Below, piece by piece: positions 46,412 to 54,879 of a stretch of 64,000 nt of DNA (its first letter is position 1; each line of letters opens with the position of its first letter). Under the pieces are notes generated by a model. That model was not told the origin of the DNA and made no database searches. It saw only the letters and a list, made by a program, of their open reading frames with translations. The stretch is from an uncultured Rikenellaceae bacterium. GTDB lineage: Bacteria; Bacteroidota; Bacteroidia; Bacteroidales; Rikenellaceae. A program made the position numbers and the translations under genes. Location: the NCBI GenBank assembly GCA_944325305.1, contig CALUZO010000004.1, positions 1 through 64,000 of the forward strand, in the 5' to 3' direction.

Positions 46412-48226
46412 ATGAGACCACTTAGAAGCAGTAAATCACTCGAAGGACGCAAAATGGCAGGGGCACGCAGCCTCTGGCGTGCAAATGGCATGAAGGAAGA
46501 ACAAATGGGGAAACCGGTGATCGCAGTGGTCAATTCGTTTACACAATTCGTACCCGGACATGTCCATCTCCATGAAATAGGCCAAAAGATAAAAGGCTGG
46601 ATCGAAGAACAGGGTTGTTTCGCCGCCGAGTTCGACACCATAGCCATCGACGACGGCATAGCAATGGGCCACAGCGGAATGCTCTATTCGCTCCCCTCGC
46701 GCGAAATAATTGCCGACAGCGTTGAATATATGTGCAACGCTCACTGCGTGGATGCGATGATCTGCATCAGCAACTGCGACAAGATAACCCCCGGTATGCT
46801 CATGGCTGCCATGAGACTAAACATTCCGACCGTTTTCGTGTCGGGCGGTCCTATGGAATCAGGCAAAATAGGCGATCGGGAATACGACCTTATCGACGTA
46901 ATGGTTATAGGTGCCGATGACAAAGTTTCCGACAAACAACTCCTCGAAATAGAGCGCGGAGCGTGCCCTACGTGCGGCAGTTGCTCGGGGATGTTCACCG
47001 CGAACTCGATGAACTGCCTTACAGAAGCGCTCGGACTTGCATTGCCCGGTAACGGTACGCTGATAGCAACCCACGAAGAACGCATGAAACTCTACCGCAA
47101 AGGCGCCGACCTGATCGTCAAAATCGCAAAACAATACTATTTCGAAGACGACGACACGGTACTTCCACGTTCGATAGCCACCAAAGAGGCATTCATAAAT
47201 GCCATGTCGCTCGACATAGCCATGGGCGGCTCTACAAACACCGTTCTGCACCTGCTCGCCGTGGCTTACGAAGCGCATGTCGACTTCACCATGGCCGACA
47301 TAGACAAGCTATCGCGTCAAATTCCCGTATTGTGCAAGGTCGCTCCAAATACGCAGAAATACCATATCCAGGATGTGAACCGCGCCGGAGGAATCCTTTC
47401 CATCATGGGCGAACTCGCCAGAGCCGGGAAAATAAATACCAAAGTAAAACGCATAGATTACCCCTCTCTGGCAGACGCCATAGACAAAAACGACATCCTG
47501 AGCCCGAACATTACTGACGAGGCAAAGAAAAGAATCCTCGCAGCGCCGGGCCGCAAATTCAATATTACCCTTGCGTCGCAGGGCGCTTACTACGACTCTG
47601 CCGACACCGACCGTGCAGAAGGCTGCATCCGCGACATCGACCATCCCTACTCGAAAGACGGTGGACTGGCCGTACTGTTCGGCAATCTGGCACAGAAAGG
47701 CTGTATCGTAAAAACGGCCGGCGTCGACGCATCCATCCTTCACTTCGAAGGTACGGCCCGCGTATTCGAATCACAGGAACAGGCAGCGGCAGGAATCCTC
47801 GGCGGCAAAGTGAATGCCGGCGACGTGGTTATCATCCGTTACGAAGGTCCCAAGGGCGGACCCGGCATGCAGGAAATGCTCTACCCTACATCCTATCTCA
47901 AAACCGTCAAACTGGACAAAGCATGCGCCCTGATTACAGACGGACGCTTCTCAGGTGGCACCTCAGGCCTTTCGATAGGACACGTCTCCCCGGAAGCGGC
48001 AGCCGGAGGCAACATAGCCCTTGTTCAGGACGGAGACAAGATCGTCATAGACATTCCGTCTCGCACCATCGAGATGCAGGTCTCGGATGAAGAACTGCAA
48101 GAACGTCGCAACAAACTGCCAGCATTCCAACCAGTCAGCCGTGACCGAGTCGTCAGTCGCTCCCTGAAGGCATATGCCGCTATGGTAGCCTCTGCAGACT
48201 TGGGCGGGGTTCGCATAGTCGAATAA
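46412..48226 (+). CDS. ilvD: dihydroxy-acid dehydratase
   Basis: Dehydrates 2,3-dihydroxy-isovalerate and -methylvalerate to the keto acids of valine and isoleucine. The 604-residue protein carries the Fe-S cysteines in [12 protein letters not shown] (about 117-128) and [19 protein letters not shown] (about 189-207); [20 protein letters not shown] is the C-terminal signature. First gene of ilvD-ilvB-ilvN-ilvC. The usual Bacteroides order is the same. The cluster is oxygen-sensitive in many species, as suits an anaerobe. Confidence 0.96.
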
Positions 48227-48364
48227 GCCTTCTCACACAGGGAGCAAGTTTTCAGGAAAACATTCGGTAACAGATTTCTGACGTGCCAAGTAACGTCTAA
48301 AAAACAGATGCCGAATCATAAGCCAGGAAAGGTAAAAAGAAGGCATCGCAAATGCGTTACAAGA

Positions 48365-48574
48365 ATGGATACCAAAATAAGGATCACCGGAGCCGAAGCG
48401 CTGTTTATGGCGCTGGAGGTCGAAGGTACAGAAGCAATCTTCTGATACCCCGGAAGCCAGGCAATACCCATATATGATCTTTTATATGATTGCGGGAAAG
48501 GGGAAAAAGACGGCAACGACACCGACAGCCCTGCAGCCGCAAAAGGACAAAGCTTAGAAAAACGACAAAATATA
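48365..48574 (+). pseudogene. decayed 5' end of a second ilvB, in frame with ilvB
   Basis: From ATG 48365 the frame encodes a close relative of the IlvB N-terminus: 24 of 42 positions agree with the downstream gene (RITGAEAL against RISGSDAL; EGTEAIF against EGTDVIF; YPGSQAIPIYDLLYD against YPGGQVIPLYDRLYD). One stop codon, TGA at 48443-48445, replaces the GGA glycine codon. Similarity ends near 48493. After that stop the frame stays open for another 43 codons and runs straight into the ilvB ATG at 48575. Most codons differ silently from ilvB, so this is an old paralog that was later cut down, not a recent tandem copy. A leftover leader-peptide role is possible but no Ile/Val/Leu run is present. 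Confidence 0.8.
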
Positions 48575-50275
48575 ATGGCAAACAAAACAAGAATCTCAGG
48601 TTCGGACGCACTCTTAAAATCGCTTATGGCAGAGGGTACCGACGTGATTTTCGGATACCCTGGAGGACAGGTCATTCCGCTATACGACCGCCTGTACGAC
48701 TATAAAGACAAAATAACACACATCCTCACACGACATGAACAGGGTGCAGCCCATGCAGCCCAGGGATACGCAAGGGCTACCGGGAAGGTCGGCGTGTGCA
48801 TCTCGACATCGGGACCTGGCGCAACCAACCTCCTCACCGGCATCGCCGATGCAATGCTCGACTCGACACCGTTGGTATGCATCACAGGGCAGGTTCCGTC
48901 GTCCATACTCGGAACCGATGCCTTTCAGGAAGCCGACATCGTCAGCATGAGCATGCCGATAACCAAGTGGAACTATCAAGTTACCACCGCATCGGAAATA
49001 GCGTCGGCAGTTGCCAAAGCATTCTACATAGCACGCTCCGGAAGACCCGGCCCGGTGCTCATCGACATTACAAAGAACGCCCAGGTAGAAGAGGTGGATT
49101 TCGCATATCGCCCTTGCACCGGACTACGCAGCTATAATCCCAAGCCCAAAATGAACTGCCCGACATCCGAGGTAGTTGAACTTATCAACGCATCGAAACG
49201 CCCGTTGATCCTTGCAGGACAGGGCGTCAAACTCGCCGGTGCGGAACAGGCGCTGATAGAATTTGCCGAGATCGGCAATATCCCGGTAGCAACGACGCTT
49301 ATGGGCATATCGGCAATCCCGAATTCGCATCCGCTTTTCGTGGGAAACCTCGGAATGCACGGCAATGTGGCTCCTAACGAGATGACGCAAGAGGCTGACC
49401 TTCTCATAGCAGTCGGAATGCGTTTCAGCGACCGAATAACCGGCGCCATAAAAGATTATGCCCCCAACGCCAAAATCATTCATATCGACATAGACCCGGC
49501 CGAATTGGGCAAAAACCTTCGATGCGACATTCCTGTGCATGCCGATGCACTCGATGCGCTGGAGGCTTTCAAAGTAGGTCTCAAGTACGTCGAACGCAAA
49601 GAATGGTTTGCATTCGCAAAAGAAAAAGCGGAAATCGAAAAGGAAAACGTAAAAGGCTTCTGTGGCGAGGCTCGCGACGGATTCATCACGATGTCGCAGG
49701 TCATACAGAAACTGGCCGAAGTGGAAGAAGCCAATGCCGTGATAGTTACCGACGTTGGACAGAACCAGATGTTCAGCGCGCGCTACTCAAAATTCAACCA
49801 AACCCGCAGCTTCATCACCTCCGGCGGACTCGGTACGATGGGATTCGGATTGCCGGCAGCAATGGGCGCAAAGGTAGGAGTCCCCGAACGCGAAGTGGTA
49901 GCAGTACTCGGCGATGGAGGTTTCCAGATGACGATGCAGGAACTGGGCACTATCATGCAAAATAAAATAGGTGTCAAGATACTCGTACTGAACAACTCTT
50001 ATTTGGGCATGGTGCGTCAGTGGCAACAGCTTTTCTTCAATTCCCGCTATTCGTTCACGGAGCTGGAGAATCCCGATTTTGCCAAAATAGCCGCAGCCTA
50101 CAACATACCCTCCAAGAGGATCATCAAACCGGAAGAACTCGAAAGCGCACTGCGTGAAATGAAAGAGGCAAAAGGCTCGTATTTCCTCGAAGTAGCCGTA
50201 TTCCCGCAGGAAAACGTCTTCCCGATGGTTCCGGCAGGAGCATCACTGTCCAATTTATTAATGAGTGAAGACTAA
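48575..50275 (+). CDS. ilvB: acetolactate synthase, large (catalytic) subunit
   Basis: Thiamine-diphosphate enzyme that joins two pyruvates, or pyruvate and 2-oxobutyrate, in valine/isoleucine synthesis. In 566 residues it shows GYPGGQVIPLYD (27-38), the catalytic Glu E55 in LTRHEQGAAHAAQGYAR, the FAD-binding middle domain, and the ThDP motif GDGGFQMTMQEL with NNSYLGMVRQWQ. ATG 48575 is chosen because homology to the family begins there; the same frame runs upstream into the ilvB remnant but is closed by TGA. It is followed by ilvN after 4 nt. Confidence 0.96.
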   Translation: MANKTRISGSDALLKSLMAEGTDVIFGYPGGQVIPLYDRLYDYKDKITHILTRHEQGAAHAAQGYARATGKVGVCISTSGPGATNLLTGIADAMLDSTPLVCITGQVPSSILGTDAFQEADIVSMSMPITKWNYQVTTASEIASAVAKAFYIARSGRPGPVLIDITKNAQVEEVDFAYRPCTGLRSYNPKPKMNCPTSEVVELINASKRPLILAGQGVKLAGAEQALIEFAEIGNIPVATTLMGISAIPNSHPLFVGNLGMHGNVAPNEMTQEADLLIAVGMRFSDRITGAIKDYAPNAKIIHIDIDPAELGKNLRCDIPVHADALDALEAFKVGLKYVERKEWFAFAKEKAEIEKENVKGFCGEARDGFITMSQVIQKLAEVEEANAVIVTDVGQNQMFSARYSKFNQTRSFITSGGLGTMGFGLPAAMGAKVGVPEREVVAVLGDGGFQMTMQELGTIMQNKIGVKILVLNNSYLGMVRQWQQLFFNSRYSFTELENPDFAKIAAAYNIPSKRIIKPEELESALREMKEAKGSYFLEVAVFPQENVFPMVPAGASLSNLLMSED

Positions 50276-50279
50276 GGCC

Positions 50280-50804
50280 ATGAACAAGGAATATATTATC
50301 ATAGCATTTACAGAGAATCAAGTTGGTGTCCTCAACAGAATAACAATCGCCTATCTTCGCCGCAAGATCAATATCGAAAGCCTCAAGGTGAGCGAAACAT
50401 CGATGAAAGGCATCAGTATGTTCGTCATCTCGGCGTTCACAACCGAACAGACAGTGCAGAAACTCGCAAGAGCCATCAATAATATAGTGGAAGTCATACA
50501 GGTCTCTTACTATACCCCCGATGAACTTATCACCCAGGAGATTGCACTCTACAAAATATCATCCAAGTTCTTCGACAAGGGCGGCCGCATAGATTCCGTA
50601 TCGAGGGAACTCGGAGCACGCATGATAGAGATCAGTCCCGGATATGTTGTTATGGAGAAAACAGGAACCCGTGAAGAGATCGAAGAGTTGCGCAACAGGC
50701 TCGAACGCCAAGGAGTATTGCAGGAATTCACCCGCTCGGGCAGCGTAGTACTGCACCGCGATTCATTAGGCGATATTTTAGGTTTCGAACAAACAAAAGA
50801 ATAA
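50280..50804 (+). CDS. ilvN: acetolactate synthase, small (regulatory) subunit
   Basis: Regulatory partner of IlvB that gives feedback inhibition by valine. A 174-residue protein with an N-terminal ACT domain (about 3-75: ENQVGVLNRITIAYLRR; SMKGISMFVI) and the C-terminal ALS small-subunit domain (about 85-165), containing DKGGRIDSVSRELGARMIEISPGYVVMEKTG (read in parts). ATG 50280 follows the ilvB stop by 4 nt; a start 15 nt upstream would overlap ilvB. The acyl-ACP thioesterase gene that I recall between ilvN and ilvC in Bacteroides is absent. Confidence 0.94.
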   Translation: MNKEYIIIAFTENQVGVLNRITIAYLRRKINIESLKVSETSMKGISMFVISAFTTEQTVQKLARAINNIVEVIQVSYYTPDELITQEIALYKISSKFFDKGGRIDSVSRELGARMIEISPGYVVMEKTGTREEIEELRNRLERQGVLQEFTRSGSVVLHRDSLGDILGFEQTKE

Positions 50805-52129: not shown

Positions 52130-53221
52130 TCAGTTTATCGTCTGTTCATCGGTTGTCGGACCGTTCACGGTCAGGATACCGTCTTTAATCTCCATCTTGT
52201 CGATGAATACGACACGTTCATCACCAGTCTCCGCGGTACGTCCGTGGTACACACAATAGAGTTGTTTCCCGTCACGCGACCAGGTAATACTGTTATGACC
52301 CACGCCGGTAACGATACCGCCCTTGGCCGTATTCTTTTCGAGCACGGGATTATTGGATGCCTTGGTATAGGGACCGAGCGGAGAATCGGATGTAGCGTAA
52401 CCCACCGCATAATTTTCGCCGCCAAAGAAGTTGGCCGAATACATCATATAGTAAACGCCGTCACGTTTAATAAGGAACGAACCTTCCGTCCAGCGGCGGT
52501 TCACCTCGCCGGAAGTAACCGAACGGCTTTCCCATTCCGCCTGTTGGTCCGACATGCTTACAGGCGGGCGCAACAGCAATACAGGTTCTCCGATCACGCT
52601 CTTGAAATCCGGACTGAGTTCGATACCGTAGACCCAACTTTCTTCGATTTCGTCGAACATGCCCTGTTCTTTCGCCCAGTCAGCAATCTCGCTCTCTACC
52701 GGATGTTTGTAGCAGCACCTCGAAAAATAGAGGTAGAACTTACCGTCATCATCCTTGAATACATTGGCGTCGATAATGGGATAACCGGGATTGAAAAGCG
52801 GCTCATCGCTGATTTCGACAAAAGGACCGGTAGGTGAATCCGACACGGCCACACCTATCAAGAAATTTTCCAGTTCATCGTTAGGGTTCACCTTCCAGTC
52901 GGCGCTGAAAAACATATAGAATTTTCCGTCTTTCTCATACACCTCCGGTGCCCAGAAATTGGATTTTGCCCATGATTCAGGGGTATTCCCCTGATAAACG
53001 GCACCTTTGTATTCCCAATCGACAAGGTTGTCGGAGACATAACATCCGAAACCGTCCTTAACGCCGCCGGTGCCGTACATGTAATAACGGCCATCGGAAG
53101 CCAGCAACACATACGGATCGCCGAACTTGACGTCGAGAGGATTCTGGTAAGTTATTTTCTGCTCCGTACTCTTACAGGCAGCCATCGCGACAACGGCAAA
53201 AAGCAATAAAAGTTTTCTCAT
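52130..53221 (-). CDS. GH43 family glycosidase, lipoprotein
   Basis: A 363-residue five-bladed beta-propeller glycosidase, anchored as a lipoprotein (signal with lipobox MAAC, Cys16). Visible catalytic residues match GH43: base D35 in KFGDPYVLL, pKa-setting D151 in YPIIDANVFKDDDGKFY, and acid E245 in RRWTEGSFLIKRDGVYYMM. Members cleave arabinofuranosyl, xylosyl or galactosyl linkages; the subfamily cannot be fixed here. The gene is the last of a minus-strand operon with three sulfatases (gap 64 nt), so it likely trims a sulfated or host-type glycan at the surface. Confidence 0.87.
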   Translation of the reverse strand: MRKLLLLFAVVAMAACKSTEQKITYQNPLDVKFGDPYVLLASDGRYYMYGTGGVKDGFGCYVSDNLVDWEYKGAVYQGNTPESWAKSNFWAPEVYEKDGKFYMFFSADWKVNPNDELENFLIGVAVSDSPTGPFVEISDEPLFNPGYPIIDANVFKDDDGKFYLYFSRCCYKHPVESEIADWAKEQGMFDEIEESWVYGIELSPDFKSVIGEPVLLLRPPVSMSDQQAEWESRSVTSGEVNRRWTEGSFLIKRDGVYYMMYSANFFGGENYAVGYATSDSPLGPYTKASNNPVLEKNTAKGGIVTGVGHNSITWSRDGKQLYCVYHGRTAETGDERVVFIDKMEIKDGILTVNGPTTDEQTIN

Positions 53222-53285: not shown

Positions 53286-54851
53286 CTATTCTTTGTAAAA
53301 CAGATAGTTATGCGGGTTACGTTTAAAGTAATACCTGTTTCTGGGGACAGGTATCGGATCTACAGTAGCGATCTCCCACTTCAACAATTCTTTCAAAAGT
53401 TCTTCACGCTGCCTCGCATATCTCTTTTTATCGAAAAGGTTCCTGATCTCTGCCGGATCTTGCTCGACATTGTACAATTCGCCGTTGCCATGCATATCGT
53501 ATACGAGTTTCCAGTCGCCCATGCGCACCATACGCATCGAACCGCTCTGGCTCCATGTGTTCAGTTCGTCAAAGAAGTAAGGTTTTTTCTGCACCGCACC
53601 CTCCTTGATGTAGTCATCGTCGTCGGCCTTGGTATAATACTCCCCTCCATAACCTGTTTCGGCCATCACGCTACGGAACTCCTCTTGAGGATAAGACTCT
53701 CCGCCGAGCATATTCTTAAGACTGCGACCCTGAACCCCAAGAGGAATCTCTCCTCCCATCATCTCGCACACGGTAGGGAATACGTCCACCATCGAAACAT
53801 GATCATCGCGAAGGCCAACGGCCTCTATGCCGGGACCGAACCACACCATCGGAACACGGGCTATCGGGTCTACAAGTCCGGCTCCCTTTTTCATCAATCC
53901 GTACTCTCCGGCATAATCGCCATGATCCGACATTATCACGAATACCGTATTTTCGTAAACGCCCATCTTTTTGAGTTCGTCCACGAGACGTGCCATCTGG
54001 TCGTCGAGCATCCGGATCATTCCCATGTATGTAGTTCGAAGGCGCTCGAGATTTTTTTCGAAGTCTTTGTGTCCCTGCCCCATCATTTCGGCAAGCTGCA
54101 CGAATTTCTCGCCTTTCGTCTCGCGTGCCGAGGCATCTGTTAGGGCAGGCGGGACCTTGCCTTCGAACATCGAGAAATAGGGTTCGCACACCTGATACGG
54201 ATTGTGCGGTTCCGGGAATGAGAGCCACATCAAAAACGGACGATCCCTATTCTCCCCTATCCACTCTACGGCGTCATCCACCATACGATAAGGCAACTGC
54301 TGCTCCACAGTGCCCGGCGAAGGCTCGAACCAGGCGTAAAAGTCCGTCCCGCCAAGAAACTTATCGAAATCGGCATTCGCCCGGCCTTTGCGCTCATCCG
54401 ATACCGGCTGTCCAAGATGATCGTACGGGCACCAGAAATCCGCACTCTCCTTATTCATGAAAGAGTGATTCTTGCCGACAAGCGCCGTCAGATAACCGTT
54501 TTCTCGGGCATAGCCGAACATGTCAGCACCATAAACCGCATCGTTTATATTATGATTTGAGTCGGCATGAGTCACCTTCGGATAGCGTCCCGTGAGGAAC
54601 GACACCCTCGAAGGGCCACTGGCCGGAGCGGCGCAATATGCCCTGTTGAACCATGCGCCTTCTTGAGCCGCTCTGTCGGCAAAAGGAGTGAGATCCAACG
54701 GAAAACCTTCTCTTGCGCAGAGATCGGCTCTTTGCTGATCGGTCATTATAAGTATGAAGTTAGGCTTTTTTTGCACCTCCCGGGCACTAACGCCCAAGGC
54801 CGACCCTAACGCCAATGCAGCAAGGGGCACTATCTTGTGTCTGCAATTCAT
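53286..54851 (-). CDS. secreted sulfatase, serine-type
   Basis: A type I sulfatase, 521 residues from ATG 54851 (a TTG frame two codons longer exists). Signal peptide about 1-23 (ending VSA). The maturation motif is SGPSR in APASGPSRVSFLTGRYP, so S78 should become formylglycine through an anaerobic radical-SAM enzyme. Metal-site residues are visible in IMTDQQRAD (start), VIMSDHGDYAGEYGLMKKG and the KGAGL helix. It hydrolyses a sulfate ester on a carbohydrate; the sugar is unknown. The stretch LMKKGAGLVDPIARVPMVWFG is typical of the larger arylsulfatase/iduronate-sulfatase-like clan. Second-to-last gene of the operon. Confidence 0.88.
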   Translation of the reverse strand: MNCRHKIVPLAALALGSALGVSAREVQKKPNFILIMTDQQRADLCAREGFPLDLTPFADRAAQEGAWFNRAYCAAPASGPSRVSFLTGRYPKVTHADSNHNINDAVYGADMFGYARENGYLTALVGKNHSFMNKESADFWCPYDHLGQPVSDERKGRANADFDKFLGGTDFYAWFEPSPGTVEQQLPYRMVDDAVEWIGENRDRPFLMWLSFPEPHNPYQVCEPYFSMFEGKVPPALTDASARETKGEKFVQLAEMMGQGHKDFEKNLERLRTTYMGMIRMLDDQMARLVDELKKMGVYENTVFVIMSDHGDYAGEYGLMKKGAGLVDPIARVPMVWFGPGIEAVGLRDDHVSMVDVFPTVCEMMGGEIPLGVQGRSLKNMLGGESYPQEEFRSVMAETGYGGEYYTKADDDDYIKEGAVQKKPYFFDELNTWSQSGSMRMVRMGDWKLVYDMHGNGELYNVEQDPAEIRNLFDKKRYARQREELLKELLKWEIATVDPIPVPRNRYYFKRNPHNYLFYKE

Positions 54852-54879
54852 TGTCAACTCTTATTTACTGATAATTCAT

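Follow-up and report, generated by a model that had tools for sequence, protein, structure and literature searches.

In Escherichia coli, operons for branched-chain amino acids have the leader peptides ilvL and ivbL. The segment considered here, positions 48365-48490 (+ strand) of the window (the whole 64,000-nucleotide stretch of DNA analysed, from an uncultured Rikenellaceae bacterium), resembles them in that it opens a short reading frame in front of an acetolactate synthase gene; unlike them, it showed neither a terminator/antiterminator pair nor a run of Ile/Leu/Val control codons nor conservation, and its sequence is derived from the enzyme itself. With the biosynthetic IlvB (TIGR00118) it shares 42 codons that align without gaps and most of the conserved N-terminal motif, but it is cut at codon 42-43, has a stop in the FGYPGG motif and a glycine changed to serine, and encodes no enzyme. 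Like the gene-fragment pseudogenes of bacteria (partial duplicates or transferred fragments), it is a short, truncated and stop-bearing homolog of its neighbour that occurs in one lineage; nothing essential distinguishes it from these, the remnant merely lying in frame before an intact gene. Most likely, the remnant is a genuine pseudogene fragment that is specific to its lineage and stems from a diverged ilvB, possibly a foreign one; a function is unlikely for it. The observation made in an earlier note on this DNA is correct, and the biology is ordinary.

Organization of the ilvD-ilvB region

The genes are arranged in the order ilvD, spacer, ilvB, ilvN, ilvC. The dihydroxy-acid dehydratase gene ilvD (46412-48226, + strand; open reading frame of 604 aa) takes the same place before ilvB in the relatives examined and is annotated so in Parabacteroides distasonis. 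The intact ilvB (48575-50275, + strand) encodes a biosynthetic acetolactate synthase large subunit of 566 aa (TIGR00118: 717 bits, cut-off 538); the following open reading frame (50280-50804, + strand; ATG near 50280, listed from a GTG at 50265) is assigned by its position after ilvB to the small subunit gene ilvN. Convergent to the ilv operon lies a 363-aa open reading frame (52130-53221, - strand), by eye similar to a lipoprotein of the family 43 type of glycoside hydrolases, which is adjoined by a sulfatase-like open reading frame (53286-54857, - strand).

The left part of the spacer (48227-48291, + strand) is common to the sister species: the segment 48240-48291 aligns to the spacer of the latter with a score of 33 (null mean near 15; reached by none of 500 shuffles). 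The adjoining left flank of the remnant (48292-48364, + strand; left end approximate) matched neither the sister spacer (p 0.86 for 48311-48364) nor ilv proteins nor, over its length, DNA of the family, and is probably part of the inserted stretch. The right flank (48491-48574, + strand), which is open in frame to ilvB, resembled none of IlvB, IlvC, IlvD and IlvN in any frame and had no DNA match over its length in the family. The extra DNA in the spacer thus amounts to approximately 250 bases, and 48365-48490 is its only recognisable part. A search of the flanks for traces of a donor ilvD upstream of the fragment, or of other IlvB sequence downstream of it, gave no result. No clear target duplication was found around the insert, only imperfect direct repeats of 11-21 nt; an imperfect 21-nt direct repeat (81%) flanks the remnant at 48328-48348 and 48498-48518 and may be due to chance in A-rich sequence.

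Homology and inactivation of the IlvB remnant

Translation from the ATG at 48365 yields MDTKIRITGAEALFMALEVEGTEAIF*YPGSQAIPIYDLLYD, and the product encoded from 48575 begins with MANKTRISGSDALLKSLMAEGTDVIFGYPGGQVIPLYDRLYD. Codons 1-42 of the remnant align without gaps to codons 1-42 of the adjacent ilvB, with 24 of the 42 residues and 81 of the 126 bases identical; the TGA at 48443-48445 (codon 27) stands opposite a GGA glycine codon of ilvB, and no further stop occurs in the 129 nt between the end of the TGA and the ilvB ATG. The codon-level match, the single stop at a glycine position and the frame staying open into ilvB, as described in the earlier note, were thereby confirmed. The homology is far beyond chance, because the remnant was matched in its own genome by tblastn with the own IlvB at E = 7.5e-9 and its residues 3-44 were matched by NCBIfam acetolactate synthase models at E values down to 4e-8; its identity to the IlvB of other Bacteroidales reaches 67%. 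The homology is confined to 48365-48490 and ends at codon 42-43: codons 43-70 of the frame matched nothing. It is unremarkable that these last 28 codons form an open frame continuous with ilvB, since according to a simple calculation roughly one in four runs of 28 random codons is free of stops and the chance of being in frame is one third.

The mismatches between the remnant and the own ilvB are distributed over codon positions 1, 2 and 3 as 8, 9 and 28, with an excess at the third (binomial p = 7e-5), and among the 24 identical residues the codon, too, agrees in only 8; judged from the codons, these figures show that both sequences diverged mostly under protein-level selection. This divergence apparently predates the separation from the sister species, which has no remnant, since 28 of 42 third positions differ between the remnant and the own ilvB versus 18 of 42 between the own ilvB and that of the sister.

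For comparison, 102 homologous N-termini were collected by a pattern that required F26 and G30 and allowed alternatives at 27, 28 and 31. Columns 9, 26, 27, 28, 30 and 31 were invariant in all 102, F26 and G30 being fixed by the collecting pattern. In the remnant, the first glycine of FGYPGG (G27) is replaced by the TGA and the last one (G31) by serine, with glycine present at each position in 102/102 homologs; in columns 18, 19 and 24 the remnant contains residues found in none of them. On these grounds, i.e. the broken invariant residues together with the truncation, a functional enzyme from the remnant is excluded.

Distribution and phylogenetic placement

Only the window's own genome carried the remnant among 268 Rikenellaceae genomes. 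In 98 other genomes of the family the remnant was matched through the N-terminus of IlvB, once each, and none of these contained a second ilvB; a full second copy at this locus in relatives, for which the earlier note had proposed a search, was thus not encountered. The sister species (G006, L039; IlvB 90% identical) has an ilvD-ilvB spacer of 110 nt devoid of the remnant, as are 19 other measured Rikenellaceae spacers of 11-254 nt, and no DNA match over the length of the insert, flanks included, was obtained in the 268 family genomes. The remnant is accordingly absent from the sister and the other genomes of the family, its own species being represented by one assembly. The own genome (approximately 83% complete) contained nothing else of a second ilvB; its two other TPP-enzyme N domains are located elsewhere and matched weakly.

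Among 65 IlvB N-termini, the remnant was closest to those of the “GQAIPIYD” type, which belong to one Bacteroidales family; this family is taken to be the Tannerellaceae because Parabacteroides distasonis (L194) nests within it. The remnant was placed on each of the 119 branches of a tree of full-length IlvB, the signal being 42 residues. The best placement was next to L165 of the Tannerellaceae-type family; the branch of the own ilvB was 10.97 lnL units worse (AU 0.036, KH 0.033, c-ELW 0.002, SH 0.27) and the best branch within the Rikenellaceae 7.9 lnL units worse, this latter margin shrinking to approximately 2-5 lnL units if L165 was left out. The placement thus favors derivation from a Tannerellaceae-type IlvB rather than from the adjacent gene, but is only suggestive, since it depends on 42 sites, is not accompanied by a rejection in the SH test, and the Tannerellaceae rows had been selected for their resemblance to the remnant, a choice that biases the comparison in their favor. 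As regards the second IlvB postulated in the earlier note, its truncation, its frame and its protein-level selection before decay are upheld by the homology and the codon pattern; as to its description as a paralog, the placement leans towards a foreign origin rather than a paralog of the adjacent gene, without settling the matter.

No donor of high DNA identity was present among the Rikenellaceae genomes, plasmids or other sequences searched. Plasmids gave no DNA match to the insert, and a 27-base piece of the remnant had no exact match in viral contigs. A mobile element, phage or plasmid as carrier was considered and discarded: the plasmid and phage matches were weak and fell on acetolactate synthase genes or on unannotated records.

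Origin and possible function of the remnant

Very probably, 48365-48490 is the dead 5' fragment of a second, diverged ilvB, either foreign or an old paralog, within a lineage-specific insertion. Most likely, a fragment of foreign ilv DNA (Bacteroidales, perhaps Tannerellaceae-like) would have entered by illegitimate recombination, giving rise in one lineage to the insertion of approximately 250 bases between ilvD and the working ilvB; alternatively, it may be all that is left of an old paralog lost elsewhere. After its entry the fragment would have gained the stop codon and changed the second otherwise invariant glycine, the enzyme function being supplied by the neighbouring intact ilvB. It is unlikely that the adjacent ilvB recently underwent a tandem duplication of its 5' end in this species, with subsequent decay of the copy: the remnant lies directly in front of ilvB on the same strand and in the same frame, its match to the own IlvB (55% identity) belongs to the better ones, and the SH test does not reject this origin, but the pile-up of differences at third positions is unlike neutral decay, the remnant is at these positions farther from the own ilvB than is the sister's ilvB, several IlvB of other genera and families match it better, and the AU test speaks against the own-ilvB placement. 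An assembly artefact, with different strains or species combined into a chimera in a draft of 18 contigs that is incomplete and the single available assembly of its species, is highly improbable, as the remnant is interior to a 108-kb contig with the usual ilvD-ilvB-ilvN arrangement, and a misjoin would need the clean insertion of approximately 250 bases in one spacer. Beyond annotation, a short, possibly foreign scrap of ilvB in a branched-chain amino acid operon is of little importance; if a donor were found, it would illustrate on a small scale how gene fragments are transferred among Bacteroidales.

The absence of a function is argued from the lack of signs that would support one, and caution is advised against annotating an extended IlvB or a leader peptide at this locus. 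Readthrough of the TGA, as considered in the earlier note, is given a virtually negligible probability: no further stop separates the TGA from the ilvB ATG in this frame, but the resulting extension would be an odd repeat of the N-terminus with a broken FGYPGG motif and an unrelated linker, nothing similar exists in relatives, and TGA is expected to serve as a stop in this bacterial group. The other role put forward there, a regulatory leader in which the 26-codon peptide with its Ile, Leu and Val residues or the RNA around the stop would act on ilvB through attenuation or translational coupling, is very unlikely. In its favor are the position of the 26-codon open reading frame in front of ilvB and the fold z-scores of the 374-nt leader (-2.7) and of the stable predicted hairpin 48410-48465 around the TGA (-3.2); however, the open reading frame is absent from all relatives searched, the leader region has no Rfam match, no terminator-like site and thus no terminator/antiterminator hairpins follow it on the + strand, and the Ile, Leu and Val residues are those of any IlvB N-terminus. 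The literature search on an ilvB leader in Bacteroidetes yielded nothing relevant. That a foreign ilvB fragment was co-opted in this single lineage to tune the resident ilvB, serving as a leader that is translated or structured, is considered extremely unlikely. The hairpin is not specific to the remnant: it is built on the EG..IFGYPG codons, occurs also in intact ilvB genes, and is regarded as a property of the coding motif, since the same stretch of the own ilvB folds better than that of the remnant (-14.1 versus -11.6 kcal/mol; median of 65 homologs -10.5 kcal/mol).
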